Below are positions 13,074 through 36,986 of a stretch of DNA of 36,986 bases, in pieces. The notes below the pieces were generated by a model. It was not told where the DNA came from and searched no databases. It worked only from the letters and a program-made list of their open reading frames with translations. Within the stretch, counting starts at the first letter, position 1; each line of letters opens with the position of its first letter. The stretch is from an uncultured Clostridia bacterium (GTDB lineage: Bacteria; Bacillota; Clostridia; Christensenellales; Borkfalkiaceae). The translations under genes and the position numbers were made by a program. The stretch covers positions 1 through 36,986 of the forward strand of contig CANQHV010000010.1 in NCBI GenBank assembly GCA_947624005.1, given 5' to 3'.

Positions 13074-13164
13074 GGATTTTTTTCGGATTTGATGTAAAAT
13101 TGCCATACCTTTACGAATTATTTTGTAAATTTTAAAAAATTTTAAACTTTGCGATAACTTTTGA

Positions 13165-26745: not shown

Positions 26746-27732
26746 ATGGTTAAGTTCTTTTTGTCTGCGGACGGAAAACTCGATAGAATCGACGCCTTCG
26801 CGCCCCGTTGCTGGATTGATATGGTAAATCCCGACGACGACGAATGCGAAGAAGTCGCACGCATTTCGGGCGTACCCGAAGATATGATAAAAGCCGCCCT
26901 CGACGAGGAAGAACGCGCGCGTTCGGAATCGGACGAGGGTTGCACCATGTTCGTGGTGGACTGCCCGATAATCGAAGAGGGCGAAGTGGGCGACAGCTAC
27001 ACCACCCTGCCCCTTGCCGTGATTTACAACAAAGACTGCATAGTTACGGTCTGCTTAAAGGGCAATACCGTTTTGAAAAACTTTATAACAGGCAGGGAAA
27101 AAATCGACACCACCGCGCCCGTACACTTTATTCTTACCTTTATGCTCGGCAACGCCAAACGGTTTTTGTACTGCCTTAAACAGATAGACAGAAAGAAAAA
27201 CCGTATTCAGGGCGAAATGGAAAAAACCATGCGCAACGCCGAAATTATGCAGCTTCTCGACCTCGAAAATTCGCTTGTCTACTTTTCGACTTCACTGCAT
27301 TCGAACGAACGCGTTCACGATAAACTTTCAAAAGTCGAGGCGGTTGTGACAAGCGAGGAATACCGCGATTTGTACGACGACGTAAGCACGGAATCCAAAC
27401 AGGCAATCGAAACCTGCCATATATATAAGGATATTTTAAGCGTGACGATGGACGCGTACGGCAGTATGATTTCGAACAACGCCAATATCACTATGCGCAA
27501 GCTGACCATAATCACCATAATTCTCGCCATTCCCACAATGATAGCGGGGTTCTGGGGAATGAATATGCCCGTGCCGTTCCAATACGGCGTAAGCGCCGCG
27601 CAGACCGTCTGGTTCTGGGTGGTTATCGCGTGTACCGCCGCCCTTACCGCGGTTATTTCGGTAATGATTTTCAAGACCTCGGCTCTGACAAGACAGCAGA
27701 AAATCCGCCGACGCAGACGGGATAAAAACTGA
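26746..27732 (+). CDS. corA: CorA-type magnesium/divalent cation transporter
   Basis: This 328-residue CorA-family channel has a cytoplasmic N-terminal alpha/beta domain, a long stalk helix rich in charged residues (about 150-240), then two transmembrane segments. The selectivity signature GMN is present (GFWGMNMPVPF, near 270), just after TM1 (IITIILAIPTMIAGF). The C-terminal tail RQQKIRRRRRDKN is strongly basic, as in the family. It likely imports Mg2+ as a pentamer. The start at 26746 follows GAGAGGA. Its stop codon overlaps the start of the FmdB-type gene by one base. The symbol is given at family level, since CorA paralogues also transport Co2+ or Zn2+. Confidence 0.93.
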   Translation: MVKFFLSADGKLDRIDAFAPRCWIDMVNPDDDECEEVARISGVPEDMIKAALDEEERARSESDEGCTMFVVDCPIIEEGEVGDSYTTLPLAVIYNKDCIVTVCLKGNTVLKNFITGREKIDTTAPVHFILTFMLGNAKRFLYCLKQIDRKKNRIQGEMEKTMRNAEIMQLLDLENSLVYFSTSLHSNERVHDKLSKVEAVVTSEEYRDLYDDVSTESKQAIETCHIYKDILSVTMDAYGSMISNNANITMRKLTIITIILAIPTMIAGFWGMNMPVPFQYGVSAAQTVWFWVVIACTAALTAVISVMIFKTSALTRQQKIRRRRRDKN

Positions 27733-27929
27733 TGCCTCTTTTACAGTATTTCTGCGCGGACTGCAACCTGCGCTTCGACGAGTTGGTAAAAAACTTCAAA
27801 GACCCCGTAGTATGCCCCCGTTGCGGCAAAAAAGCCGAGCGCAGTTACTCGGGCGAGGTGTACTCCGCCACGGGCAAAAAAACGGTCCGTTGCTCGGGCA
27901 ATTGCAAAACCTGCGGCGGTTGCAAATGA
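27732..27929 (+). CDS. FmdB-family zinc-ribbon protein
   Basis: This 65-residue protein has the FmdB-type ribbon at the N-terminus: MPLLQYFCADCNLRFDEL, then CPRCGKKAER, giving two Cys-x2-Cys pairs. A further cysteine-rich tail, CSGNCKTCGGCK, could bind a second metal. The FmdB family is a putative regulator group with no defined function in most bacteria. It is translationally coupled to corA (TGATG overlap), which suggests a link to divalent-metal homeostasis, but that is inference. Confidence 0.85.
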   Translation: MPLLQYFCADCNLRFDELVKNFKDPVVCPRCGKKAERSYSGEVYSATGKKTVRCSGNCKTCGGCK

Positions 27930-27944
27930 GTTCACGGAAAAATA

Positions 27945-27968
27945 AAGCGCCTTTGCGGGCGCTTAAAA
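27945..27968 (+). terminator. Weak terminator after the corA-fmdB unit
   Basis: A 7-bp stem (27945-27951 with 27958-27964, 6-nt loop) is followed by AAAATTTT. A second small hairpin, CCGCA-TGCGG, is at 27974-27988. Confidence 0.5.
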
Positions 27969-28085
27969 TTTTACCGCAAAAAATGCGGAATTAATGTGAT
28001 ATATACGTCCCCCGCGCTTATTAAATCCGAATAAAAATATATAGTACGTTTTATTATATAAAATAAAAAATAATGACAAAATACG

Positions 28086-28122
28086 TATACCACTCCGCCC
28101 CGATACGGGGCGGAGTGGTATA
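28086..28122. repeat. Hairpin 1a, 17-bp stem, loop ATA
   Basis: Arms are 28086-28102 and 28106-28122, core CCACTCCGCCCCG. Copied at 34837-34875 with the loop inverted to TAT. Confidence 0.9.
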
Positions 28123-28131
28123 TAAAAAAAT

Positions 28132-28170
28132 GTGCGTGCGCCCGCGGTTTTTAACCGCGGGCGCACGCAC
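28132..28170. repeat. Hairpin 1b, 18-bp stem, loop TTT
   Basis: Arms are 28132-28149 and 28153-28170, GTGCGTGCGCCCGCGGTT and its complement. Followed by TCAAC. Counterpart at 34883-34915. Confidence 0.9.
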
Positions 28171-28194
28171 TCAACACGCCACGCGTATTTATTA

Positions 28195-28222
28195 GTATCG
28201 CGCGGCAACTGCCGTGCGATAC
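28195..28222. repeat. Hairpin 1c, 13-bp stem with one G-T pair
   Basis: Arms are 28195-28207 and 28210-28222 (GTATCGCGCGGCA). A degenerate small CCCC-TAC-GGGG hairpin follows at 28227-28237. Confidence 0.75.
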
Positions 28223-28291
28223 TCCTCCCCTACGGGGTGCGGCGCGTTTTTAATTTATTTCATTTTCTCGCCTCAACCCTTTCTACTCCAA

Positions 28292-28336
28292 ATATTCCCC
28301 ATTGCGGCGCGCAATGCGCGCCGCAATGGGGAATAT
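28292..28336. repeat. Hairpin 1d, 21-bp perfect stem, loop AAT
   Basis: Arms are 28292-28312 and 28316-28336, with an AT-rich base and a GCGGCGCGC centre. Confidence 0.9.
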
Positions 28337-28385
28337 AATTATATAAATATATAGCTGTAATAAGCGTAAGCGCACACACTCTTAC

Positions 28386-28428
28386 ATTTTCCCTTGTCTG
28401 CGCGCTGTGCGCGCAGATAAGGGAAAAT
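28386..28428. repeat. Hairpin 1e, 20-bp stem with one G-T pair, loop TGT
   Basis: Arms are 28386-28405 and 28409-28428 (ATTTTCCCTT base, TCTGCGCGC top). Confidence 0.88.
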
Positions 28429-28475
28429 AAAAGCACAAACACGTTATCCTCGTTTACCCCCCCCTCCCCCACCTT

Positions 28476-28518
28476 CTATCTTCCCCGCCGAGGCTTTCAG
28501 CCTCGGCGGGGAAGATAG
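28476..28518. repeat. Hairpin 1f, 20-bp perfect stem, loop TTC
   Basis: Arms are 28476-28495 and 28499-28518. It shares the core GCCGAGGCT with the hairpin at 34642-34680, whose loop is GAA, the reverse complement. Confidence 0.9.
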
Positions 28519-28553
28519 TATATATAAATGCAAGTTTCTCAACCACTATCCCA

Positions 28554-28580
28554 CCCGCCGCGCGCAACGCGCGCGGCGGG
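28554..28580. repeat. Hairpin 1g, 12-bp perfect stem, loop AAC
   Basis: Arms are 28554-28565 and 28569-28580 (CCCGCCGCGCGC). Confidence 0.88.
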
Positions 28581-28640
28581 CACGTTATATAAGGCGGTCA
28601 ATTCGTTCGGAATGACAATAAAATCGAAAAAATAAATAAT

Positions 28641-28685
28641 TATATACTTCTTTCCGCCCCGATACGGGGCGGAAAGAAGTATATA
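28641..28685. repeat. Hairpin 1h, 21-bp perfect stem, loop ATA
   Basis: Arms are 28641-28661 and 28665-28685. It has the same CCGCCCCG-ATA core as hairpin 1a but a different outer stem (ACTTCTTT for CCACT), changed on both arms so that pairing is kept. Confidence 0.92.
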
Positions 28686-28721
28686 TGTAGAATATGTATA
28701 TCGCGTTTTTATATTACAATT

Positions 28722-28754
28722 GTGAGCGCGCCCGCAGTTTGCGGGCGCGCTCAC
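28722..28754. repeat. Hairpin 1i, 15-bp perfect stem, loop GTT
   Basis: Arms are 28722-28736 and 28740-28754 (GTGAGCGCGCCCGCA). Followed by TCAAC, like hairpin 1b. Confidence 0.9.
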
Positions 28755-28770
28755 TCAACTGCCTCTTACT

Positions 28771-28799
28771 ATCCTCCGCGCGCGTTGCGCGCGGAGGAT
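28771..28799. repeat. Hairpin 1j, 13-bp perfect stem, loop GTT
   Basis: Arms are 28771-28783 and 28787-28799 (ATCCTCCGCGCGC). Followed by GGAAAGATTTTTAT. Relatives are at 29130-29167 and 34934-34958. Confidence 0.9.
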
Positions 28800-28868
28800 G
28801 GAAAGATTTTTATATTAAAGTAACATACAACGTGAGCCGCGACATTTATTATTTATAAATAAAAAAAG

Positions 28869-28906
28869 AATGAGAGCCCGCGAGCTTCCGCTCGCGGGCT
28901 CTCATT
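28869..28906. repeat. Hairpin 1k, 17-bp perfect stem, loop TTCC
   Basis: Arms are 28869-28885 and 28890-28906 (AATGAGAGCCCGCGAGC). Counterpart at 34550-34590. Confidence 0.9.
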
Positions 28907-28959
28907 CATATTATGTTTAAGCAACGCCGCGCATTATTTACGCCGCCTATCTCCCCTCT

Positions 28960-28995
28960 ATATAGCCGCCGAAGCGAAAGCCTCGGCGGCTATAT
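28960..28995. repeat. Hairpin 1l, damaged copy of the GCCGAGGCT hairpin
   Basis: The outer 13 bp (28960-28972 with 28983-28995) pair perfectly, but the left inner arm reads GAAGC where array 2 has GAGGCT, a one-base loss plus a change. It shows that imperfect members exist. Confidence 0.8.
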
Positions 28996-29047
28996 GTAAC
29001 TTCGGTTTTTCAAAACGCAGTTGTAAACGCGATTTTTGACTTTCACT

Positions 29048-29084
29048 TTATGCGGCGCGCGTTTTACAAACGCGCGCCGCATAA
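29048..29084. repeat. Hairpin 1m, 17-bp perfect stem, loop TAC
   Basis: Arms are 29048-29064 and 29068-29084 (TTATGCGGCGCGCGTTT). An identical hairpin is at 34715-34751, with the same upstream linker word CAGTTGTAAACG. Confidence 0.92.
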
Positions 29085-29129
29085 TATTCTTCTCATTTCT
29101 CTTTTGCTTGCAATCACACTCAACTACCA

Positions 29130-29167
29130 CTTTCCCCCTCCGCGCGCGTGCGCGCGGAGGGGGAAAG
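29130..29167. repeat. Hairpin 1n, 17-bp perfect stem, loop CGTG
   Basis: Arms are 29130-29146 and 29151-29167 (CTTTCCCCCTCCGCGCG). Confidence 0.9.
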
Positions 29168-29178
29168 ATTTTTAATAC

Positions 29179-29290
29179 AAAGTGAGCCGCGCGGGACAAT
29201 TTTTTATGTTTGATTGGAACGCAAGTCGGACAAGAACGGAAGCCGAAAAGATACGCCGTCAAACATTCGGTTTGCCGCGCGGCTCACTTT
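29179..29290. repeat. Long-range inverted repeat enclosing repeat unit R1
   Basis: 16-bp perfect arms (29179-29194 and 29275-29290, AAAGTGAGCCGCGCGG) enclose 80 bases that themselves contain ATGTTTGA / TCAAACAT arms (29206-29213 and 29259-29266). The layout is MITE-like but encodes nothing recognisable. In array 2 the corresponding element (34977-35018) has lost the interior. Confidence 0.8.
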
Positions 29291-29366
29291 TTTATGTTTG
29301 ATTAGAGCGCAACTCGGACAAGAACGAAAGCCGAAAAGATACCACGTCAAACATTCGGTTTGCCGC
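29201..29366. repeat. Tandem 88-bp direct repeat R1/R2
   Basis: R1 (29201-29278) and R2 (29289-29366) have an 88-bp period and differ at about six positions by eye. Both start TTTTTATGTTTGATT and contain GCCGAAAAGATA. A third, more diverged copy begins at 35021 in array 2. An open frame in R1 is interrupted by TAG at the fourth codon in R2, so coding is unlikely. R2 is followed by CAAGCGTAAGGCTTG (29367-29381). Confidence 0.85.
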
Positions 29367-29413
29367 CAAGCGTAAGGCTTGCCGCCCGCAGACGGCGGGC
29401 GGGCATTACAGTA

Positions 29414-30850
29414 TTAATACCAATCGTGTTTTTCGCCGCGGTCGAGAGAAGCAATCTCGCTCATTTCCTCGTCCGTAAGCGAAAAACCGAACACCGAAAT
29501 ATTTTCGAGAATATGAGCGGGGTTGGAAGAGCCGGGGATCGCCACAACGCCGCGCTGTAAATGCCAACGTAAAATGACCTGCGCCGCCGTTACATTATGC
29601 GCCTCGGCAATTTTGACGATAGTTCCATCGCCCAAAAGTTCGCCCGTGTGTCCTCTGCCGCCGAACGGATACCACGCCTGCATTACAATTCCCAAATTGT
29701 GCATATACGGCACGACGGCTTGCTCTTGATAATAGGGGTGTATTTCGTTCTGCACGAGCGCGGGCTTAATGTCTACCTGCGAAATAAAACCGTCTATTTC
29801 TTCAATATACCAATTCGACAACCCCAACGAGCGGATTTTTCCGTCGGCTACCGCCTTTTCCATCGCCTTATAAGCCTTGACGTCATTTTCGCCGGGGTGG
29901 TGCAAAAGCATCATGTCGATATAGCCTATATTGAGTTTATCAAGCGATTCCCGTATTGCCTCTTCGGGGTGAGAATATTGTTCGCCGGGGTAAATTTTGG
30001 TGATAACGAAAATTTCCTCGCGCGGTACGCCCGATTCTCTTATCGCTTCGCCTATCTCTTTTTCGTTGCCGTACATATGAGCGGTGTCGATAAGGCGAAC
30101 GCCGCAATCCAGCGCCGCTTTTACCGAAGCTTTGCAGGTTTCGCCCGTAAGGGAGTAAGTGCCAAGTCCCAAAATCGGCATTTCGTAGCCGCTGTTAAGC
30201 GTTACGGTGGGGGCGCGACCGTTTTCGCCGCTTTCAAGATTGAATGAGGATACGTCGCGCGTTAAATTCAATCCGAGTGAATCCACCCATTCGTCAACCG
30301 TGTTTTGAGCAGTTCCCGAAGAAAATCTTATGCCGTCGAGCCAAGTTGCGCCATTTGTAAGTGAATGTAAATTTGTTGCGCTACTGCCGATACCGCTTGA
30401 ATGCGAAGTGCAGAACGGAACAACCGTCTTGCCCGAAAAGTCATAGGATTCGAGAAATGTATATATGATTTTAGGCGCTTGACCGTGCCAGATAGGATAG
30501 CCCAAAAATACGACCTTGTATTTTTCCATATCCTCAACTCTCCCGCTTATTGCAGGGCGAGCGGCGGGGTCGCTCTGTTCCCTGTCCGCGCGGCAGTCAG
30601 TGTAGTATTTCAAATCGTCCTCGGTATAAGGATCTTCGGGTACAATTTCGTAAAGCGTGCCTCCCGTATTTGTTTTAATATACTCCGCGATGTCTTTTGT
30701 GGTGCCAGTGCAAGAAAAATATGCTACAAGTACGTTTGAAGAATCAGCCGACGGCGTAAGATTTCCGCCGTTATCCTCCGCTTCCCCGCACGCCGCAAGC
30801 GCGAACAGCGCAATTACCGCCGCAAGGGCGATTCCGAACAGTTTTTTCAA
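29414..30850 (-). CDS. Lipoprotein flavodoxin-aldo/keto reductase fusion
   Basis: This 478-residue two-domain protein has a lipoprotein signal (lipobox LAAC, Cys21). A flavodoxin-like domain follows at about 38-195, with the FMN phosphate loop FSCTGTTKD (45-53), FLGYPIWHGQAP and FCTSHSSGIGSS. A short linker (about 196-213) leads to a complete aldo/keto reductase domain (about 214-478) with the catalytic tetrad Asp255, Tyr260, Lys285 and His317 (DTAHMYG, ITKIYP, MLLHHP) and AKR-type IPGSSNPAHILENI. Separate flavodoxin and AKR genes are often neighbours in gut Firmicutes; here they are one chain, predicted to lie outside the membrane, where NADPH should be scarce. It overlaps the hydrolase gene by 4 bases and is last in a three-gene operon. 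Confidence 0.92.
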   Translation of the reverse strand: MKKLFGIALAAVIALFALAACGEAEDNGGNLTPSADSSNVLVAYFSCTGTTKDIAEYIKTNTGGTLYEIVPEDPYTEDDLKYYTDCRADREQSDPAARPAISGRVEDMEKYKVVFLGYPIWHGQAPKIIYTFLESYDFSGKTVVPFCTSHSSGIGSSATNLHSLTNGATWLDGIRFSSGTAQNTVDEWVDSLGLNLTRDVSSFNLESGENGRAPTVTLNSGYEMPILGLGTYSLTGETCKASVKAALDCGVRLIDTAHMYGNEKEIGEAIRESGVPREEIFVITKIYPGEQYSHPEEAIRESLDKLNIGYIDMMLLHHPGENDVKAYKAMEKAVADGKIRSLGLSNWYIEEIDGFISQVDIKPALVQNEIHPYYQEQAVVPYMHNLGIVMQAWYPFGGRGHTGELLGDGTIVKIAEAHNVTAAQVILRWHLQRGVVAIPGSSNPAHILENISVFGFSLTDEEMSEIASLDRGEKHDWY

Positions 30851-31842
30851 TTTTTCTCCTTATTAAATGCGTCTTTGAAAAAGTTGACGATTTTTCCGAA
30901 CGGAATTACGTCCTTTTTGTCATACAGGTCGGTATGCACGGCGTTCGGTATTATAAACAGTTCTTTATTCGCCGCATATTTGCCGTTTGCCATTGCGGCG
31001 TAGGCGTCTTTCGAAAAATAGCAAGAATGCGCCTTTTCGCCGTGGATTAACAACGCCGCGCTTCTTATTTCCTTGCTGTAAGCAAGAATGGGCATATTTA
31101 TAAACGAAAGAGCGGAAGTTACGTTCCAACCGCCGTTCGAATTGAGCGAACGCGGGTGATATCCGCGTTTTGTCTTGTAATAGTCGTAATAATCTTTGAC
31201 GAAGAACGGCGCGTCGTCGGGGAGCGGGTCGACAACGCCGCCCGCGAGTGCGTATTTTCCGCTTTTAAAGTCGCGCGTGCGCTGTGCGTTGAGCGCCTTT
31301 TTCGTTTCGTAACGCACCTCTTCGCTATCCTGCGCGTCGAAATAGCCCTTTGCGTTCACGCGGGTCATATCGTACATCGTCGAGGCGACGGTCGCCTTTA
31401 TGCGCGTGTCCATAGCCGCCGCGTTCAACGCCATTCCGCCCCAGCCGCATATACCTATTATGCCTATTTTATCGGGGTCCGCGTCCTCGCGGCAGGAAAG
31501 ATAGTCCACCGCCGCCGAAAAGTCCTCGGTATTAATGTCGGGCGAAGCCACATATCTCGGTTCCCCGCCGCTCTCGCCCGTAAACGAGGGGTCGAAAGCT
31601 ATGGCGAGAAAGCCGCGTTCCGCCATTTCCTGCGCATATAACCCCGAACTTTGCTCTTTGACCGCGCCGAAAGGTCCGCAGACGGCGATTGCGGGGAGTT
31701 TTCCGCTCGCCTTTTTCGGCTTATACACGTCGCAGGCGAGCGTTATGCCGTAACGGTTGCAAAAGGTCGCCTTGCTATGCTCCACCTTCTCGCTCTTTTC
31801 AAATACTTTGTCCCATTCCTTCGTTAACTTCAATTCTTCCAT
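30847..31842 (-). CDS. Alpha/beta hydrolase with cysteine nucleophile elbow
   Basis: This 331-residue cytoplasmic protein belongs to the dienelactone-hydrolase-like (YcjY-type) alpha/beta hydrolases. The nucleophile elbow is GICGWGG, with Cys132 where serine hydrolases have Ser. The oxyanion-region strand is AIAVCGPFGAVKEQ and the catalytic His is probably in IPNAVHTDLYD near the C-terminus. The start is ATG at 31842 behind CAAGGAGTA; an open frame continues upstream but overlaps the acetyltransferase gene out of frame and is very Arg-rich. The gene overlaps the flavodoxin-AKR gene by 4 bases and follows the acetyltransferase by 5. The substrate is unknown, and the operon suggests ester or acetyl chemistry. 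Confidence 0.88.
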   Translation of the reverse strand: MEELKLTKEWDKVFEKSEKVEHSKATFCNRYGITLACDVYKPKKASGKLPAIAVCGPFGAVKEQSSGLYAQEMAERGFLAIAFDPSFTGESGGEPRYVASPDINTEDFSAAVDYLSCREDADPDKIGIIGICGWGGMALNAAAMDTRIKATVASTMYDMTRVNAKGYFDAQDSEEVRYETKKALNAQRTRDFKSGKYALAGGVVDPLPDDAPFFVKDYYDYYKTKRGYHPRSLNSNGGWNVTSALSFINMPILAYSKEIRSAALLIHGEKAHSCYFSKDAYAAMANGKYAANKELFIIPNAVHTDLYDKKDVIPFGKIVNFFKDAFNKEKN

Positions 31843-31847
31843 AATTT

Positions 31848-32417
31848 TTACTCCTTGATGGTTTTTATGATTTTTGCGGGAACGCCCGCCGCAACCGTAT
31901 TTTCGGGCACATTTTTCGTGACTACCGCTCCCGCGGCGACTATCGCGCCGTCGCCCACGGTTACGCCGGGAAGAATAGTCGCGTGCGCGCCTACCCACAC
32001 CCTGTTGCCTATTTTTACGGGCGCGGGCGTCATATTGCCGCGCTTTACGGGGGTTTGGTCGTGATTCAAAGTCGCGATTACCACCTGCTGTCCTATAAGG
32101 CAGTCGTCGCCAATCGTAATCCCGCCCTGGTCCTGAAAACAGCAACCCGAATTGATAAATACGCGCTTGCCTACTGTAATATTCATTCCGAAGTCGGTGG
32201 AAAAGGGCGGAAACAGCCCGAAAGAATCATCGTATTCCTTTCCGATAAGCTCGAAAAAAAGCTTTTTCAGTTCCTCTGGCGCGTGGTATTTGCCGTTTAT
32301 CTCCGCCGTGTATCGAAGCGCCCTCTGCGACATTACGTGCATATAACGGTGCGCGTCCGAACCCGCCTCGATATACGTCCCCTTTGCCATATCTTCGATA
32401 AATTTCCGTCCGTCCAT
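31848..32417 (-). CDS. Sugar O-acetyltransferase (maltose/galactoside type)
   Basis: This 189-residue left-handed beta-helix acyltransferase is of the Maa/LacA/NodL group. An N-terminal maltose-acetyltransferase helix region (about 1-60, KYHAPEELKKLFFELIG) precedes hexapeptide repeats from about 75 (ITVGKRVFINSGC, ITIGDDCLIGQQV, VKIGNRVWVGAHATILPGVTVGDGAIVAAGAVVTK). His119 in ATLNHDQTP is the likely catalytic base. It should move acetyl from acetyl-CoA to a sugar hydroxyl. It is first in an operon with a hydrolase and the flavodoxin-AKR lipoprotein, under a perfect consensus promoter. Assigning maa or lacA is not justified by sequence alone. Confidence 0.93.
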   Translation of the reverse strand: MDGRKFIEDMAKGTYIEAGSDAHRYMHVMSQRALRYTAEINGKYHAPEELKKLFFELIGKEYDDSFGLFPPFSTDFGMNITVGKRVFINSGCCFQDQGGITIGDDCLIGQQVVIATLNHDQTPVKRGNMTPAPVKIGNRVWVGAHATILPGVTVGDGAIVAAGAVVTKNVPENTVAAGVPAKIIKTIKE

Positions 32418-32438
32418 ACTTTTCTCCGTCTATACTAC

Positions 32439-32476
32439 ATTATAATTTACGGCTTTTTGTATGTCAAACAGTTGAC
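32439..32476 (-). promoter_or_regulatory. Perfect sigma-A promoter of the acetyltransferase-hydrolase-AKR operon
   Basis: On the minus strand this reads TTGACA (32462-32467), a 17-bp spacer, TATAAT (32439-32444), an exact consensus. The inverted repeat GTCAA-ACAG-TTGAC (32463-32476) overlaps the -35 and could be an operator. No regulator gene is adjacent. Confidence 0.8.
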
Positions 32477-32488
32477 GGTTTAGAAATT

Positions 32489-32512
32489 ACGCGCTTTTCG
32501 GCGCGTTTTTTT
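32489..32512 (+). terminator. Plus-strand terminator ahead of the 32568 gene
   Basis: A 6-bp stem ACGCGC-GCGCGT (32489-32494 with 32501-32506) is followed by a run of seven T residues. No plus-strand gene lies upstream, so it may insulate the 32568 unit from antisense read-through or act as an attenuator. Confidence 0.55.
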
Positions 32513-32521
32513 ATTCGGGCG

Positions 32522-32550
32522 GTATGAAACAAAAAAATGCGGTCAATAAG
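32522..32550 (+). promoter_or_regulatory. Possible sigma-F/G-like promoter of the LytM unit
   Basis: GTATG (32522-32526), 14 bases, then GGTCAATAAG (32541-32550) partly matches the forespore sigma pattern GHATR-N14-16-GGnnAnAmTw, with mismatches in the last positions. The predicted start would leave almost no leader before the GGAGGG site. It is offered only because the downstream gene resembles spoIIQ. Confidence 0.22.
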
Positions 32551-32567
32551 ATTATGCGGAGGGCGGA

Positions 32568-32987
32568 ATGAAAACGGCAAGACTTTGCGCGGCGGCGCTC
32601 GCCGCCGCCGCGCTTATAATACTTTTTGCGGCTTTGCCGCAAAAGACCGCGTTCGAGGGCGCGGATAGCTACGCGTTTTTCTGCGGCGACACTTCGCGCA
32701 ATTTCAGGGAAGTGCGCGCGGACGGAAACGCGGGAATTATGAAGCTGGTGTTAAGCGACATAAGCGGGGAATGCGCGACTTACAGTCAATTCGACGTCGA
32801 GGGCTTTTTAAAGGCGATAGACGGCGAAATTCAATTCACCGAAGAAATAGCGGGAACGCGCAATCTCTATATTTCGGGCAACCTGCCCTATTCGGTAACC
32901 CTTTACGGCACAACGATAAACGCGCAAATCTGCATAGGCGAGGACGGCGTAAAAGTCGCTTCCCCCATAATCTTCGGCGGGTATTGA
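32568..32987 (+). CDS. Small exported protein of unknown function, upstream of a SpoIIQ-like gene
   Basis: This 139-residue protein has an N-terminal hydrophobic segment (about 5-25, Ala/Leu-rich), either an uncleaved anchor or a signal peptide without a lipobox. The rest is a small mixed alpha/beta domain with GECATYSQFDVEGFLKAI, ITFTEE-like strands and a C-terminal ASPIIFGGY. I do not recognise a family; a relation to short YwmB-like proteins, which sit near sporulation genes in other Firmicutes, is possible but unproven. The start at 32568 has CGGAGGGCGG upstream. It is 90 bases before the LytM gene, with a small hairpin between, so the two are probably one transcript ending at the tandem terminators after 33749. 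Confidence 0.75.
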   Translation: MKTARLCAAALAAAALIILFAALPQKTAFEGADSYAFFCGDTSRNFREVRADGNAGIMKLVLSDISGECATYSQFDVEGFLKAIDGEIQFTEEIAGTRNLYISGNLPYSVTLYGTTINAQICIGEDGVKVASPIIFGGY

Positions 32988-33077
32988 AAGCCCGCGCCCC
33001 GCGGCAAACCCGAAGATTAAAAAAAATTATGATTAAAACGGCGAAAAGCCGTCAATAAATTCAGCAAGGAGTTAAAA

Positions 33078-33749
33078 ATGGAAGAAAACAAGAACAAGAA
33101 ACCCGGTAAAAAAAGACTTTTACTCTACTACTTGTTATTGGCGGCGTGCATACTTATAATCGCAGCCGTCACCGTAACGGTAGTGCTTGCGGTTACCGGC
33201 AAGAACGATAAAATTACGGTCGCTCCGCCCACGCTCGAAGACAACAGCGGCGACAACAACGATATGAGCGGCGGCAACAGCGGCGAAACCGAAAATCCCC
33301 CCGTACAGGAGCCCGACGTGGACGTAAACACATCTTCGGTGTTCATCTTCCCCGTTTCGAACCCCAACGTTTCGCAGGAAATGGACTTCTGGTATAACGC
33401 CACCCTCGACCGTTACCACCAGCACGGCGGAATGGACTTTTCGTGCGCCGCGGGCGACGAAGTTTTTGCGGCGATAGACGGCACTGTGGTTGACGTGATA
33501 GCAAACGACATTTTAGACGGCGGCTATATCAGAATTTCGCACGACAACGGAATTTTCACGGTTTACAAATTCGTCGAACCCGTCGAAGGACTTGTCGCAG
33601 GCGCGCGCGTAAACCGCGGCGACGTGATAGGCACGGTAATGGCGGCGACGGGCGTAGAAGGCGAATGCGGCGACCACCTGCACTTCGAAGTTTACAGAAA
33701 CGGCACGCTTACAAACCCCGCCGAATTCCTCTCGGCCGAAAACAAATAA
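33078..33749 (+). CDS. M23/LytM-domain membrane protein, SpoIIQ-like
   Basis: This 223-residue bitopic protein has a basic N-terminus, one transmembrane helix (about 14-40), an Asn/Asp/Gly-rich linker (about 50-85) and a C-terminal LytM domain. The zinc ligands of active M23 peptidases are all present: His116 and Asp120 (QHGGMD) and His200-x-His202 (GDHLHFE). The topology and size match SpoIIQ, the forespore half of the engulfment channel; the Bacillus protein has lost part of the zinc site while Clostridioides SpoIIQ keeps it. A vegetative cell-wall hydrolase is the alternative. The start at 33078 follows CAAGGAG. No SpoIIIAH partner is in the window. Confidence 0.85.
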   Translation: MEENKNKKPGKKRLLLYYLLLAACILIIAAVTVTVVLAVTGKNDKITVAPPTLEDNSGDNNDMSGGNSGETENPPVQEPDVDVNTSSVFIFPVSNPNVSQEMDFWYNATLDRYHQHGGMDFSCAAGDEVFAAIDGTVVDVIANDILDGGYIRISHDNGIFTVYKFVEPVEGLVAGARVNRGDVIGTVMAATGVEGECGDHLHFEVYRNGTLTNPAEFLSAENK

Positions 33750-33755
33750 CCCCCG

Positions 33756-33787
33756 AAAGATTCCCGCGCTTCGCCGCGGGAATCTTT
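33756..33787 (+). terminator. First terminator after the LytM gene
   Basis: A 13-bp stem (33756-33768 with 33775-33787, loop CTTCGC) is followed by TATTATT. Confidence 0.8.
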
Positions 33788-33795
33788 TATTATTA

Positions 33796-33827
33796 CGCGC
33801 GGGCGTTGAGCCCGCGCGGTTTTTTTG
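33796..33827 (+). terminator. Second, classical terminator after the LytM gene
   Basis: A 9-bp GC stem (33796-33804 with 33810-33818, loop GTTGA) is followed by a run of T residues (GTTTTTTT). The tandem arrangement should fully isolate the downstream micro-peptide promoter. Confidence 0.9.
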
Positions 33828-34023
33828 CGCCCCTACCCCTTCCGACGGCGCCGCCGCAGTTTCAGCCCACGATAGGCTAAATTAACAAAAAAATGAAAAT
33901 TAACGGGAATTATCACAAAAATTTGAATTATAAAAATGTTAAGTTCACATTTTAAAAGTTTTTTACATATGATAGTGTTAGAAAATAACAAAAATAAAAT
34001 TTTTAAAAATTTTTTAATTGTTA
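33828..34023. other. AT-rich region upstream of the micro-peptide promoter
   Basis: No gene is seen. The stretch from about 33880 to 34023 is very AT-rich with repeated A- and T-tracts, clearly different in composition from the genes around it. It could act as an UP element or as curved DNA in front of the promoter at 34024. Confidence 0.5.
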
Positions 34024-34052
34024 TTGACTAACATTTTTTTTAATGCTATACT
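34024..34052 (+). promoter_or_regulatory. Strong sigma-A promoter of the twin micro-peptide unit
   Basis: TTGACT (34024-34029), exactly 17 bases, TATACT (34047-34052), preceded by a long A/T-tract region. Transcription should start near 34059 and end at the terminator at 34383-34415, giving an RNA of about 350 nt. Confidence 0.8.
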
Positions 34053-34125
34053 ACGGGTGCAATCGGAAAAGGGACGGCAAAGGCTCTTTTCGAACGTAAA
34101 GCGAAACACACAAGGAGGTGTTCAC

Positions 34126-34218
34126 ATGTTAATTTACGATAGATTAAACGAGTTGGATGATTGCAAAGATTTGGCGGTAAGTCCGCTTGTTTACGTCGTA
34201 CTCGGTCTTTCGAAGTAA
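34126..34218 (+). CDS. Micro-peptide 1 (30 residues), paralogue of micro-peptide 2
   Basis: The peptide begins MLIYDRLNELDD and ends LAVSPLVYVVLGLSK. It has a near-perfect ribosome binding site, AAGGAGGTG, 5 bases before the ATG. It shares the pattern M-x-I-Y-[DE]-x-[LI]-x-E-L-[DE], then L-x-V-S-P-L-x-Y-V-x-L, with the next gene. The N-terminal half looks like an acidic amphipathic helix; the C-terminal half is hydrophobic with a central Ser-Pro. There is no signal peptide. It contains one Cys (13). No family is recognised. It could be a regulatory peptide, a modified-peptide precursor or a membrane-active micro-protein; no maturation or immunity gene is visible nearby. Confidence 0.75.
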   Translation: MLIYDRLNELDDCKDLAVSPLVYVVLGLSK

Positions 34219-34271
34219 TGACGTAACGGAAAAAAGGAAATTGATGAGAAAAAAATGTAAGGAGGCAAGAT

Positions 34272-34367
34272 ATGTCTATTTACGAACTGATATTCGAATT
34301 GGAAAGCAAAAATGAAAATCTGGGGGTATCTCCCCTGTCGTATGTAGCGCTGAACTGCGCTAGATAA
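34272..34367 (+). CDS. Micro-peptide 2 (31 residues), paralogue of micro-peptide 1
   Basis: The peptide begins MSIYELIFELES and ends LGVSPLSYVALNCAR. AAGGAGG lies 6 bases before the ATG at 34272. It matches micro-peptide 1 in length and in the conserved positions (Ile3, Tyr4, acidic 5, Glu-Leu at 9-10, Val-Ser-Pro-Leu, Tyr-Val-x-Leu and a basic last residue) while the DNA has diverged widely, including at third positions. That pattern argues for real translation and an old duplication. A 53-base spacer separates the two and they share one promoter and one terminator. It contains one Cys near the end. Confidence 0.75.
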   Translation: MSIYELIFELESKNENLGVSPLSYVALNCAR

Positions 34368-34382
34368 TAAGCACAAAAATTG

Positions 34383-34415
34383 CAGCGGGCTTCGAAAAGA
34401 GCCCGCTGTTTTTTT
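34383..34415 (+). terminator. Terminator of the micro-peptide unit, complementary to the 5' leader
   Basis: A 9-bp stem (CAGCGGGCT with AGCCCGCTG, 34383-34391 and 34400-34408) is followed by seven or more T residues. Bases 34391-34403 (TTCGAAAAGAGCC) are the exact reverse complement of leader bases 34082-34094 (GGCTCTTTTCGAA), so the two ends of the RNA can pair over 13 bp. Confidence 0.88.
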
Positions 34416-34463
34416 GTTCCCCCGCCCGCGATATAGGAACGGCAGTTGAAAAATGCATGTTGT

Positions 34464-34508
34464 ATCTTACTAATCGCCGCGCGCAATGCGCGCGGCGGTT
34501 AGTAAGAT
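34464..34508. repeat. Hairpin 2a, 21-bp stem with one G-T pair, loop AAT
   Basis: Arms are 34464-34484 and 34488-34508; the top is CGCCGCGCGC. On the plus strand it ends in TTTTTAT. Confidence 0.9.
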
Positions 34509-34549
34509 TTTTATATATAATGTATGCCGCGGCGTTTATTATATATAAA

Positions 34550-34590
34550 TAATGAGAGCCCGCCCGCAGATTGCGGGCGGGCTCTCATTA
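34550..34590. repeat. Hairpin 2b, 19-bp perfect stem, loop GAT
   Basis: Arms are 34550-34568 and 34572-34590 (AATGAGAGCCCGCCCGCA core). It is related to hairpin 1k, with both arms changed together at the top. Confidence 0.9.
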
Positions 34591-34641
34591 ATAATTATTT
34601 TTTGATTATTTAAAGTTAAATAAATTTCTACCCCCTCCCCC

Positions 34642-34680
34642 TATATAGCCGCCGAGGCTGAAAGCCTCGGCGGCTATATA
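34642..34680. repeat. Hairpin 2c, 18-bp perfect stem, loop GAA
   Basis: Arms are 34642-34659 and 34663-34680 (TATATAGCCGCCGAGGCT). It is the intact version of damaged hairpin 1l. Confidence 0.92.
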
Positions 34681-34714
34681 AAACACAGTTGTAAACGTAT
34701 TTTTGCCTTTCACT

Positions 34715-34751
34715 TTATGCGGCGCGCGTTTTACAAACGCGCGCCGCATAA
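34715..34751. repeat. Hairpin 2d, 17-bp perfect stem, loop TAC
   Basis: Arms are 34715-34731 and 34735-34751. Identical to hairpin 1m. Confidence 0.92.
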
Positions 34752-34836
34752 TATCTTGGCATTTTTCTTTTTGCGTGCTCGCGGCGGGTAAAATCGGAAT
34801 TACAAAAATGAAAAATGAATTATAATGACAAACCAC

Positions 34837-34875
34837 ATATACCACTCCGCCCCGTATCGGGGCGGAGTGGTATAT
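34837..34875. repeat. Hairpin 2e, 18-bp perfect stem, loop TAT
   Basis: Arms are 34837-34854 and 34858-34875. The core is the inversion of hairpin 1a (loop TAT for ATA) in the same flanks. Confidence 0.92.
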
Positions 34876-34882
34876 AAAAAAT

Positions 34883-34915
34883 GTGCGTGCGCACGCAGTT
34901 TGTGGGCGCACGCAC
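34883..34915. repeat. Hairpin 2f, imperfect 15-bp stem, loop GTT
   Basis: Arms are 34883-34897 and 34901-34915, with one mismatch and one G-T pair. Followed by TCAAC. Counterpart of hairpins 1b and 1i. Confidence 0.8.
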
Positions 34916-34933
34916 TCAACGGTCACTTACTAA

Positions 34934-34958
34934 CCTCCGCGCGCGTTGCGCGCGGAGG
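34934..34958. repeat. Hairpin 2g, 11-bp perfect stem, loop GTT
   Basis: Arms are 34934-34944 and 34948-34958 (CCTCCGCGCGC), followed by GGGGAAAGATTTTTA. The outer left arm no longer matches the right. Confidence 0.88.
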
Positions 34959-34976
34959 GGGAAAGATTTTTAATAC

Positions 34977-35018
34977 AAAGTGAGGCGCGCGGGCAATTTT
35001 GCCCGCGCGCCTCACTTT
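34977..35018. repeat. Hairpin 2h, 18-bp perfect stem, loop AATTTT
   Basis: Arms are 34977-34994 and 35001-35018 (AAAGTGAGGCGCGCGGGC). It corresponds to the long-range inverted repeat at 29179-29290 without its 80-base interior. Confidence 0.9.
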
Positions 35019-35090
35019 ATATGTTTGAACTGTACGTAAACTCGACGGGAACGCACGCCGAAAAGATACATCGCTCAAGCGTTAGGCTTG

Positions 35091-36986
35091 TCAATTTCGC
35101 GTTTCAACGCCGTCCTTTGAAATACTCCCGTCCGTGCAATACACGGTATAATCACCTGTACGGACATTCCAAAAGCTATCTTTTTCAATCGCTTCCCAAT
35201 CGTCAATAGTACCGTTAAAATCTATTCTCGCAAGTTTATAGCAATCGCAGAACACACTAGCGCCGAATTCGGTCACACTTGCGGGAATAGTGATGGAAGT
35301 AAGCGAAGTGCAATAGCGGAACGTAGCATAGCCGATTTTGGTCACGCTCTCGGGAATGGTAACAGAAGTAAGCGAACTGCAATAGTAGAACGCCATATCG
35401 CCAATCTCGGTCACGCTCTCGGAAATAGAGATTGAAGTAAGCGAAGTGCAATATTCGAACGCATAATATCCGATTTTGGTCACGCTCTCGGGTATAGTGA
35501 CGGAAGTAAGCGAAGTGCAATCACTGAACGCCCCTGTGCCGATTGAGGTCACGCTGTCGGGAATGGTGACATTGGTTTTTGTTTGCGGTACTTTGATAAT
35601 CTCTGTAAACGTTTTATTATATAGTATCCCATCCCGACTTGCAAAAGTTGCATTGCCGTCGGCCACCTCTATGCTCTCAAGCGAGGTGCACCCCTCGAAC
35701 GCATAATCATGATAGTTGATTTCGGTTATGCTCTCGGGAATAGTTACGGAAACAAGCGAGGTACAACCGTAGAACGCATATCGCCATATCTTGTAATTTT
35801 TACTGTAATTAGGCAATATTATATCTGTATCTTCGCCCTCGTATCTGACCAAATATACTCCGTCCGTATCGTCGTAGAATACAAAATCACCTTGCTGTTT
35901 AAGTTTGCTCTGCATTTCGCCTTTGCCGTAGACATAAAGCGCATATTGCGCTATGCCGCCGTTAGTACTTCCTCCTTTCTGAATATCAAGCGAGGAATTA
36001 TTGTATACTTCCGCAAGATGATGGCAACCGCTGAACGCATAACTGCCGATATAAGTTACGCTCCCTGGAATAGTGACGGAAGTAAGCGAGGTGCACCTGT
36101 AGAACGCATAACCGCTGATAGAAGTGACACTCCCGGGAATTGTGATTGAAGTAAGCGATGTACAACCTTGGAACGCAGCATAGCCGATGGATATCACGCC
36201 CGCGGGAATGTTAACAGATGTAAGCGAGGTGCAACCCTCGAACGCACTGTTGCCGATTGAGGTCACGCCCACGGGGATAGTGACGGAAGTAAGCGAGGTA
36301 CAACCCTTGAACGTCCAAAGGCCAATTGAGGTCACGCCTACGGGAATAGTTACGGAAGTAAGCGAGGTGCAACCCCAGAACGCATAACCGCCGATTGAGG
36401 TCACGCTCTCGGGAACGGTCACGGAAGTAAGCGAAGCGCAATCACTGAACGCCTCGTCGCCGATTGAGGTCACGCTCTCGGGAATGGTCACGGAAGTAAG
36501 CGAAGCGCAATCACTGAACGCCTCGTCGCCGATTTTTGTTACGGGTATACCGTTATAACTGCGGGGTATAATTATATCCTCATCGGTCGCCGTTCCTTTT
36601 GAAACCGAATACCCCACTGTTTCGCTGTTTTCTGTTATGGGAGTAAACTCTAAACCGACTGTAAGCGGAGTATTGCAGTCCGAGCATTTGGTTTCGCCCG
36701 CATTTAAACTGTGTCCGAGTAAAGGCAGTTGCAGATTTTCAAGCGTGGTTTCGTTTTTCTGCTCGTCGAAATATTTTCCGCAAACTTTGCAGTAGTAGTG
36801 TGTTTTAACGCCTTTTTGCGCACAAGTTGACGGAACTGCGGCTTGCAGCGTGCCGTAGTCGTGTTGCGCCAACGGCAGTTGCAGGCTTTCAAGCGTGGTT
36901 TCGTTTTTCTGCTCGTCGAAATATTTCCCGCAACCTGCACAGTAGTAGTGCGCTTTAACGCCCTTTTGCGCACAAGTTGACGGAAC
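35091..36986 (-). CDS. BspA-type leucine-rich-repeat surface protein, N-terminus beyond the window
   Basis: At least 631 codons are open from the right edge (36986) to the stop at 35091. The codon at 36872 is TTG inside the frame and not a start. The visible N-terminal part has two copies of a 50-residue (150-bp) unit with CAQKGVK-x-HYYC-x2-CGKYFDEQKNETT, a small cysteine ribbon. About 14-15 TpLRR repeats of 23 residues follow (pattern SVTIPESVTSIGDEAFSDC), interrupted near 35800-36010 by a non-repeat stretch. The C-terminus DDWEAIEKDSFWN and TVYCTDG is typical of this family. It is probably a secreted or wall-linked adhesin; signal and anchor lie outside the window. Confidence 0.9.
   Translation of the reverse strand, partial: VPSTCAQKGVKAHYYCAGCGKYFDEQKNETTLESLQLPLAQHDYGTLQAAVPSTCAQKGVKTHYYCKVCGKYFDEQKNETTLENLQLPLLGHSLNAGETKCSDCNTPLTVGLEFTPITENSETVGYSVSKGTATDEDIIIPRSYNGIPVTKIGDEAFSDCASLTSVTIPESVTSIGDEAFSDCASLTSVTVPESVTSIGGYAFWGCTSLTSVTIPVGVTSIGLWTFKGCTSLTSVTIPVGVTSIGNSAFEGCTSLTSVNIPAGVISIGYAAFQGCTSLTSITIPGSVTSISGYAFYRCTSLTSVTIPGSVTYIGSYAFSGCHHLAEVYNNSSLDIQKGGSTNGGIAQYALYVYGKGEMQSKLKQQGDFVFYDDTDGVYLVRYEGEDTDIILPNYSKNYKIWRYAFYGCTSLVSVTIPESITEINYHDYAFEGCTSLESIEVADGNATFASRDGILYNKTFTEIIKVPQTKTNVTIPDSVTSIGTGAFSDCTSLTSVTIPESVTKIGYYAFEYCTSLTSISISESVTEIGDMAFYYCSSLTSVTIPESVTKIGYATFRYCTSLTSITIPASVTEFGASVFCDCYKLARIDFNGTIDDWEAIEKDSFWNVRTGDYTVYCTDGSISKDGVETRN

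Follow-up and report, generated by a model that had tools for sequence, protein, structure and literature searches.

The window analysed here, a 36,986-nt stretch of DNA from an uncultured Clostridia bacterium, carries two arrays of closely spaced hairpins, array 1 and array 2, that belong to a family of related arrays dispersed over the same genome. The arms of these hairpins match each other almost perfectly even where copies of the arrays have diverged, while their short loops change rapidly and are often found as reverse complements of each other. We consider it probable that the family is a lineage-specific mosaic palindromic repeat whose arms and loops have been shaped by DNA copying rather than by the demands of a working RNA. 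Judging from the sequences, the combination of near-perfect arms and flipped loops is likely best explained by template switching during replication. The genome is a 1.22-Mb draft, 77% complete, in 18 contigs (here Cn), and the window is contig C10.

Array 1 spans positions 28,086 to 29,167. A main scan of the whole window, with loops shorter than 3 nt disallowed, detected 13 hairpins there with stems of 12 to 21 bp, 11 of them free of mismatches, and with loops of 3 nt in ten cases and 4 nt in three. A lower threshold adds a fourteenth (28,194 to 28,223, 13-bp stem with one mismatch) at the one place where the centre-to-centre spacing, otherwise 47 to 102 nt, reaches 163 nt. If the split palindrome described below is counted as well, an earlier note on this DNA gave a fair description in reporting a dense array of about fifteen hairpins with mostly perfect stems of this length and predominantly 3-nt loops. 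No such hairpin arose in 50 trials with simulated order-1 sequences of the same composition, against the 13 observed. The feature is not confined to the interval given in that note, since a second array, made up of seven hairpins, occupies 34,464 to 35,018 and related loci are found on ten other contigs. Inside both arrays the scan found 19 hairpins, 15 with 3-nt loops, and in the rest of the window six of at least 12 bp, with loops of 4 to 6 nt. Sixteen stretches around matches to array DNA were retrieved from the genome, and our genome counts refer to these parts; in them, 3-nt loops are found in 57 of 82 array hairpins versus 19 of 69 non-array hairpins. Over 12 array loci the G+C content is 67% in hairpins and 36% in spacers. 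As the earlier note had also recognised, this is not a CRISPR array: there is no constant direct repeat, and between 27,800 and 29,700 the direct-repeat families with copies within 200 nt are limited to two pairs, one of 88 nt and one of 22 nt.

A search of the genome with array DNA yields 94 matches, and beyond the window arrays or fragments of them lie at eleven places, which brings the total to 13 loci (C2, C3, C4, C5, C8 with two, C9, C10 with two, C11, C14, C16, and C18; the second loci of C8 and C10 are called C8b and C10b). The C16 locus and the second C8 locus resemble the arrays only distantly, and the C3 junction, with 16 hairpins, exceeds array 1. Sorted by their inner seven arm bases, the hairpins fall into about a dozen recurring types, to which we give letters, and others that fit no type. 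The types keep a common order with conserved spacers, and blocks are missing, doubled, or exchanged between loci. In some slots the outer arms are common and the tip is different; AATGAGAGCCCGC is found in an arm of a type K hairpin in array 1 and of a type I hairpin in array 2. The hairpins are therefore not copies of one sequence, as the earlier note had it, but they are not unrelated either, and with two A and two J hairpins in array 1 they are not all distinct. C10b and C14 have one whole hairpin that C8 lacks; AATAAT flanks it on both sides where it is present and stands in single copy where it is absent. The best reading of this organization is a dispersed mosaic palindromic repeat with a layout like that of bacterial interspersed mosaic elements (BIMEs), found so far in one genome. 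An assembly artefact, named in the earlier note as a way in which the feature might dissolve, or a chimera could be suspected in a draft of 18 contigs with the arrays on C8, C9, C14, and C18 less than 2 kb from a contig end. Aligned pieces of array copies are only 74 to 97% identical, and the arrays on C2, C3, C4, C5, C10, and C11 lie inside contigs with ordinary genes around them; such diverged copies on many contigs appear to argue against an artefact, which we find barely credible.

A single chromosome here offers dozens of related hairpins whose slots can be recognised, and this allows arm correction and loop inversion to be counted in it. Aligned copies differ at 7.3% of positions in stems, 14.3% in spacers, and 51% in loops. 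In a strict set of 66 loop comparisons, involving 57 hairpins and at least 25 aligned spacer columns each, 22 pairs of loops were identical and 19 were exact reverse complements of each other; of the rest, 13 resembled the reverse complement more closely and 12 the same strand. A looser set of 84 gave 29 same, 27 reverse complement, and 28 other. The exact flips of the strict set come from seven types (A, B, I, J, K, L, and M), and type C contributes one in the looser set. For the stems, bias is lowest in a count that takes the stem as defined in one copy and projects its pairs onto the other, in both directions (138 projections). Of the Watson-Crick pairs so projected, 2,084 were unchanged and 143 had become another Watson-Crick pair through changes on both sides; 4 had become a non-pair through changes on both sides, and in 96 a single side had changed (38 to G-T, 19 to A-C, and 39 to other combinations). 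A further 38 pairs were lost to gaps, and in 19 cases the source pair was itself not Watson-Crick. A stricter count of stems paired in both copies, a definition that favours paired positions, gave 64 double and 20 single changes; with stem ends included, 79 double changes were complementary, 2 were not, and 71 changes were single. Complementary double changes thus outnumber single changes in every count, with single changes commoner than the strict count implies. The 82 array stems together hold 1,391 Watson-Crick and 15 other pairs, under stem calling that penalised mismatches.

Many double compensatory changes, together with G-T single changes twice as numerous as A-C, would also suit a large structured non-coding RNA family with several paralogues whose hairpins are selected as RNA, and predicted folding is indeed very strong: for positions 28,071 to 29,070, z is -31.8 for the + strand folded as RNA and -19.2 for the - strand folded as DNA (20 shuffles each). 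Selection on an RNA would also yield double changes, but it would not by itself yield strand-flipping loops, and here the loops are both the fastest-changing part and the part that flips. Hairpin number and order vary between copies, no such array was found in the relatives searched, and none of 34 Rfam matches over 27,700 to 36,986 reached its gathering score, so that we regard an RNA family as very improbable. The heavily structured RNA expected in the earlier note is predicted to fold, but the joint changes of the two arms and the strand flips of the loops lead us not to favour it as the product under selection.

Template switching between inverted repeats, by contrast, is described in the accessible parts of two papers as homogenising the arms and inverting the loop or spacer (PMC8794818, PMC8604942), and in the corresponding part of a third, 5-azacytidine-induced template switching in Escherichia coli was stronger on the leading strand (PMC6357072). 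The matched arms and inverted loops of the arrays, read from sequence, correspond to this published signature. So far as their accessible text goes, these three papers treat rRNA stems, a yeast coding sequence, or a reporter hairpin, whereas here the same homogenised arms and inverted loops run through a whole repeat family of one genome. In the mechanism that we propose, the palindrome would fold during DNA replication and the polymerase would switch template between its arms; each switch would match one arm to the other and could flip the loop, and stems would in this way stay near-perfect without selection on a transcript. More tentatively, we infer that blocks may reach new sites by replication-linked template switching or by single-strand transposition, and may survive at the 3' ends of genes, where they would be least harmful. 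To our knowledge, both the origin of bacterial palindromic repeats and the means by which their arms are kept matched are unsettled. A caution also follows, in that double compensatory changes, often taken to prove a functional RNA, can arise from DNA copying.

The individual hairpins of array 1, all on the + strand, begin with type A at 28,086-28,122 (17-bp perfect stem, loop ATA) and type B at 28,132-28,170 (18-bp perfect stem, loop TTT, which at other loci is TTC or GAA). The fourteenth hairpin, at 28,194-28,223, is of type C and has the loop AACT, which at the C5 locus is AGTT. Type D follows at 28,292-28,336 (21-bp perfect stem, loop AAT), with a second D-like slot at 28,386-28,428 (20-bp stem with one mismatch, loop TGT), then type L at 28,476-28,518 (20-bp perfect stem, loop TTC) and type J at 28,554-28,580 (12-bp perfect stem, loop AAC). 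A second copy of type A, with changed outer arms, lies at 28,641-28,685 (21-bp perfect stem, loop ATA) and is followed by type I at 28,722-28,754 (15-bp perfect stem, loop GTT). The second J copy, at 28,771-28,799 (13-bp perfect stem), has the loop GTT, the reverse complement of the AAC of the other J, and type K at 28,868-28,907 (18-bp perfect stem) has TTCC, which at the C4 locus is GGAA. The slot that elsewhere holds type L is occupied at 28,960-28,995 by a hairpin with a 16-bp stem, one mismatch, and a 4-nt loop. The array ends with type M at 29,048-29,084 (17-bp perfect stem, loop TAC) and type N at 29,130-29,167 (17-bp perfect stem, loop CGTG), followed by ATTTTTA. Array 2, also on the + strand, consists of J (34,464-34,508), I (34,550-34,590), L (34,642-34,680), M (34,715-34,751), A (34,837-34,875), a second J (34,934-34,958), and O (34,977-35,018).

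A further aspect of the family is its orientation. Arrays of the main family lie in + orientation on C3, C4, C5, C8, C10, and C11, all of them contigs with negative total GC skew, and in - orientation on C2, C9, C14, and C18, whose total skew is positive. Orientation thus agrees with total GC skew on all ten contigs, with the coding-strand majority on nine, and with the sign-reversed third-position skew on nine, C14 being the sole exception in both of the latter. When the hairpins are masked, 20 of 30 locus pairs agree in orientation; eight of the ten disagreeing pairs involve C8b or C16, which run the other way, and the other two are C11 against C4 and C5, matching through a block that holds small open reading frames (ORFs). 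GC skew was considered as an independent sign of replication direction and rejected, as third-position skew is opposite to total skew on nine of the ten contigs, which means that total skew mainly mirrors gene direction. Genes in Firmicutes mostly follow the leading strand, and if this holds here, the arrays would have been laid down one way round relative to the replication fork. We take this pattern as a post hoc hint of replication-coupled copying. That the arrays were dispersed by such copying or by single-strand transposition is a guess, for which the evidence is their orientation, their mosaic structure, and the one clean case of hairpin presence and absence. It is conceivable, though on the unlikely side, that the family is a hairpin replicator coupled to DNA replication and lacking its own transposase. 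The replication fork itself would then copy the palindrome blocks, perfect and invert them, and set them down the same way round with respect to its direction of travel, so that they would fill many convergent junctions of a single lineage.

Several observations weigh against our main reading of the arrays as a lineage-specific repeat shaped by DNA copying. The copies are related to each other, and the comparisons between them are therefore not independent events. Single changes are not rare, and those to G-T exceed those to A-C by about two to one (38 to 19, 27 to 14, and 10 to 4 in three counts), which leaves room for some constraint at the RNA level. The orientation pattern was noticed only after the fact, and any tie to replication is tentative. 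No mobilising enzyme has been linked to the arrays, although one could be missing from a genome that is 77% complete, and no array has been caught moving. Finally, the iPGM protein beside the C3 array is only about 60 to 76% identical in congeners (genomes of the same genus), so that the ends of an insertion cannot be drawn.

The position of the arrays raises the question whether they are bidirectional transcription terminators or insulators, selected against read-through and antisense RNA between convergent genes. In the retrieved stretches, with junctions typed by a simple longest-ORF caller, 8 of 13 array loci are at convergent junctions versus 13 of 110 other junctions, in line with the position between convergent genes given in the earlier note; the remaining five were called tandem (C8, whose left neighbour is cut by the contig start, C11, and C16) or divergent (C5 and C9). 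A T-run on either strand stands beside 30 of 82 array hairpins, so that a minority have the G+C-rich hairpin followed by a T-run of an intrinsic terminator, and T-runs are no commoner there than outside the arrays (32 of 69), in keeping with the view of the earlier note that these are not simply terminators. Single hairpins, which that note had weighed as possible ordinary terminators throughout the genome, do occur outside the arrays, at 16 per 100 kb, and the arrays are set off clearly from these. At comparable junctions the congeners carry single hairpins, as a terminator would predict, but one or two hairpins suffice them at the same junction where this genome has an array. The C3 junction, where an array lies between iPGM and Coat_F genes, measures 1,635 nt and holds 16 hairpins, whereas the facing genes of congeners are separated by 40 to 486 nt with one or two hairpins (13 of 29 loci with both genes; 68 congeners had an iPGM match, 29 loci were examined with up to 1.5 kb on each side, and the 16 without a visible Coat_F match are uninformative). 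In congener G003, an M23 peptidase gene faces a 703-amino-acid ORF across a single 21-bp hairpin with a TTC loop, at the site where our genome has array 2 and a leucine-rich-repeat gene. We regard terminators or insulators as an unlikely account of the family. Hairpins with T-runs at array edges probably also end transcription, and the arrays as such are not explained thereby.

Another possibility is that the arrays are elements akin to repetitive extragenic palindromes (REPs) and BIMEs, moved as single-stranded DNA by a Y1 (HUH) transposase, either a resident one of IS200 type or a REP-associated tyrosine transposase (RAYT) that is lost or unassembled. The genome has three Y1_Tnp genes, one of them at a distance of about 1 kb from array C8b; the arrays are oriented in keeping with total GC skew on all ten contigs, and one hairpin has been gained or lost between short direct repeats, all of which would be compatible with such movement. 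The three genes (L149, L150, and L151, where L numbers denote retrieved stretches) lie on C3 at 5.3 kb, C8 at 18.2 kb, and C1 at 108.8 kb and are of two kinds, two copies being 99.6% identical over 667 nt. The two distinct proteins are, to our eye, presumably IS200 TnpA-like, and we did not recognise a RAYT in this 77% complete genome. The hairpins beside the IS200 copies, as judged by arm sequence and by eye with the ends of the insertion sequences unmapped, are of no array type. Searches for foot tags within about 10 nt of the stem, with GTGG not counted, gave no GTAG 5' of the foot for any of the 82 hairpins, whichever strand is read, and no CGTC or GACG on either side; on the other side of the stem, CTAC is found upstream of 8 and GTAG downstream of 4 of the 82. 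In the accessible parts of the REP literature, the guide tetranucleotide at the hairpin foot is GT[AG]G, or CGTC in another super-family (PMC6006769, PMC3733652). Mobilisation by a Y1 transposase is, in our judgement, quite unlikely. A search for the reverse transcriptase family PF00078 in this genome gave no match (two candidates scored).

The arrays do share with the REP, BIME, and REPIN elements served by TnpA-REP (RAYT), as these are presented in the accessible parts of the same papers (PMC6006769, PMC3733652), the many short intergenic palindromes, the linkers, and the mosaic clusters. They differ in having about a dozen types per array family, near-perfect stems, and flipping 3-nt loops. 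We do not file them as REP or BIME, given that neither foot tag, GTAG or CGTC, was detected and that we recognised no RAYT. The earlier note was right in calling REP/BIME the nearest bacterial concept, but its statement that no element of this layout is described needs qualification, since BIMEs, yeast GC clusters, and hairpin elements of sponges are analogues. In the available portion of the source, yeast mitochondrial GC clusters are G+C-rich palindromes that proliferate, diversify, merge, and shuffle (PMC4478555), whereas the present family resides in a bacterial chromosome, with up to 16 hairpins at junctions that are mostly between convergent genes. Sponge mitochondria, in what is accessible of the respective paper, carry perfect intergenic hairpins, sometimes in tandem, whose types differ by complementary substitutions, whose stems are more conserved than their loops, and which are scattered among related genomes (PMC2800124). 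Our family differs from these in having many more types, in loop inversion as a main form of loop change, and in being bacterial. In its behaviour it comes close to both kinds of mitochondrial element. Among the titles and abstract openings of open-licence literature, this layout was not described in bacteria, nor among small dispersed repeats.

Within the limited sensitivity of our searches, in which only two or three candidates were scored per genome, such arrays were not found in any relative. At E values of up to 0.001, an array query gave one short match each in 9 of 100 relatives (three candidates per genome), and among 391 genomes of the class, our own included, a match at 1e-6 was obtained only in our own (two candidates per genome). 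The L core is found in 0 of 100 relatives and nine times in our genome, the J core once each in 5 of 100 relatives and 14 times in ours, and the B core once in 1 of 92 congeners and six times in ours. Eight congeners sampled over 1.51 Mb (788 kb and 726 kb) have hairpins of at least 12 bp at 11.5 to 26.5 per 100 kb and showed no cluster of three, nor did any of the relatives' 56 aldo-keto reductase loci; one stretch of congener G031 (L033), which came from a different search, has three hairpins within about 0.2 kb. A phage or plasmid origin was considered and rejected, no match being obtained at the "distant" sensitivity. One core pattern matched 14 viral contigs, 12 of them without a hairpin of at least 11 bp and the other two with scattered, different hairpins.

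Array 1 is flanked on the left by a CorA-like transporter gene (26,746-27,732, + strand) and a small ORF (27,732-27,929) that is presumably zinc-ribbon-like, and on the right by a convergent flavodoxin/aldo-keto reductase gene (29,414-30,850, - strand). Array 2 lies between an M23 peptidase gene (33,078-33,749, + strand) and a convergent BspA-type leucine-rich-repeat gene (35,091-36,872, - strand). In congener G003, the CorA and zinc-ribbon-like genes are followed after about 280 nt by an orthologue of the window ORF 32,568-32,987 and then by the M23 peptidase gene, and the 8 kb at this locus showed neither an array nor a match to the aldo-keto reductase or hydrolase genes, so that array 1 abuts a segment that is missing at this locus of G003. 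The genes for the aldo-keto reductase and the hydrolase (window 29,414-32,145) are near each other in many of 56 loci of relatives, but none of these loci showed the window's CorA, M1 peptidase, or M23 gene, so that the location of the pair seems to vary. Among named genomes, the aldo-keto reductase is best matched in "uncultured Clostridia bacterium" assemblies that bear the label "Lapin," which we read as rabbit material.

Just beyond array 1, on the + strand at 29,179-29,361, a split palindrome (arms 29,179-29,194 and 29,275-29,290) encloses part of a tandem pair of 88-nt repeats that are 90% alike. The 88-nt repeat (29,186-29,361 in the window) is itself dispersed, at 13.6-13.9 and 19.4-19.8 kb on C8, 14.5 and 35.6 kb on C16, and 195 and 239 kb on C1; away from the main arrays the matches are partial and mostly in opposite orientation relative to the local skew, and the repeat is possibly a separate element. 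The array loci of C5 (L016, 5000-5400) and C11 (L013, 4100-4600) contain the same 34-amino-acid ORF with a hydrophobic N terminus, and that of C4 (L010, 5800-6300) has a different 40-amino-acid ORF in a similar setting. Each of these small ORFs stands behind a ribosome-binding-site-like stretch, with promoter-like sequences on both strands by eye, and the loci look like candidate type I toxin-antitoxin systems. The viral contigs L158 and L159 represent related phages with many scattered hairpins of 11 to 18 bp, mostly with 3- to 4-nt loops, several of which are common to both contigs, which are in opposite orientation. A relative's locus (L045) carries, at 977-1331 and 13,094-13,119, three copies of a hairpin with CCCTCCCCCAA in its arms, possibly another small family of palindromic repeats.

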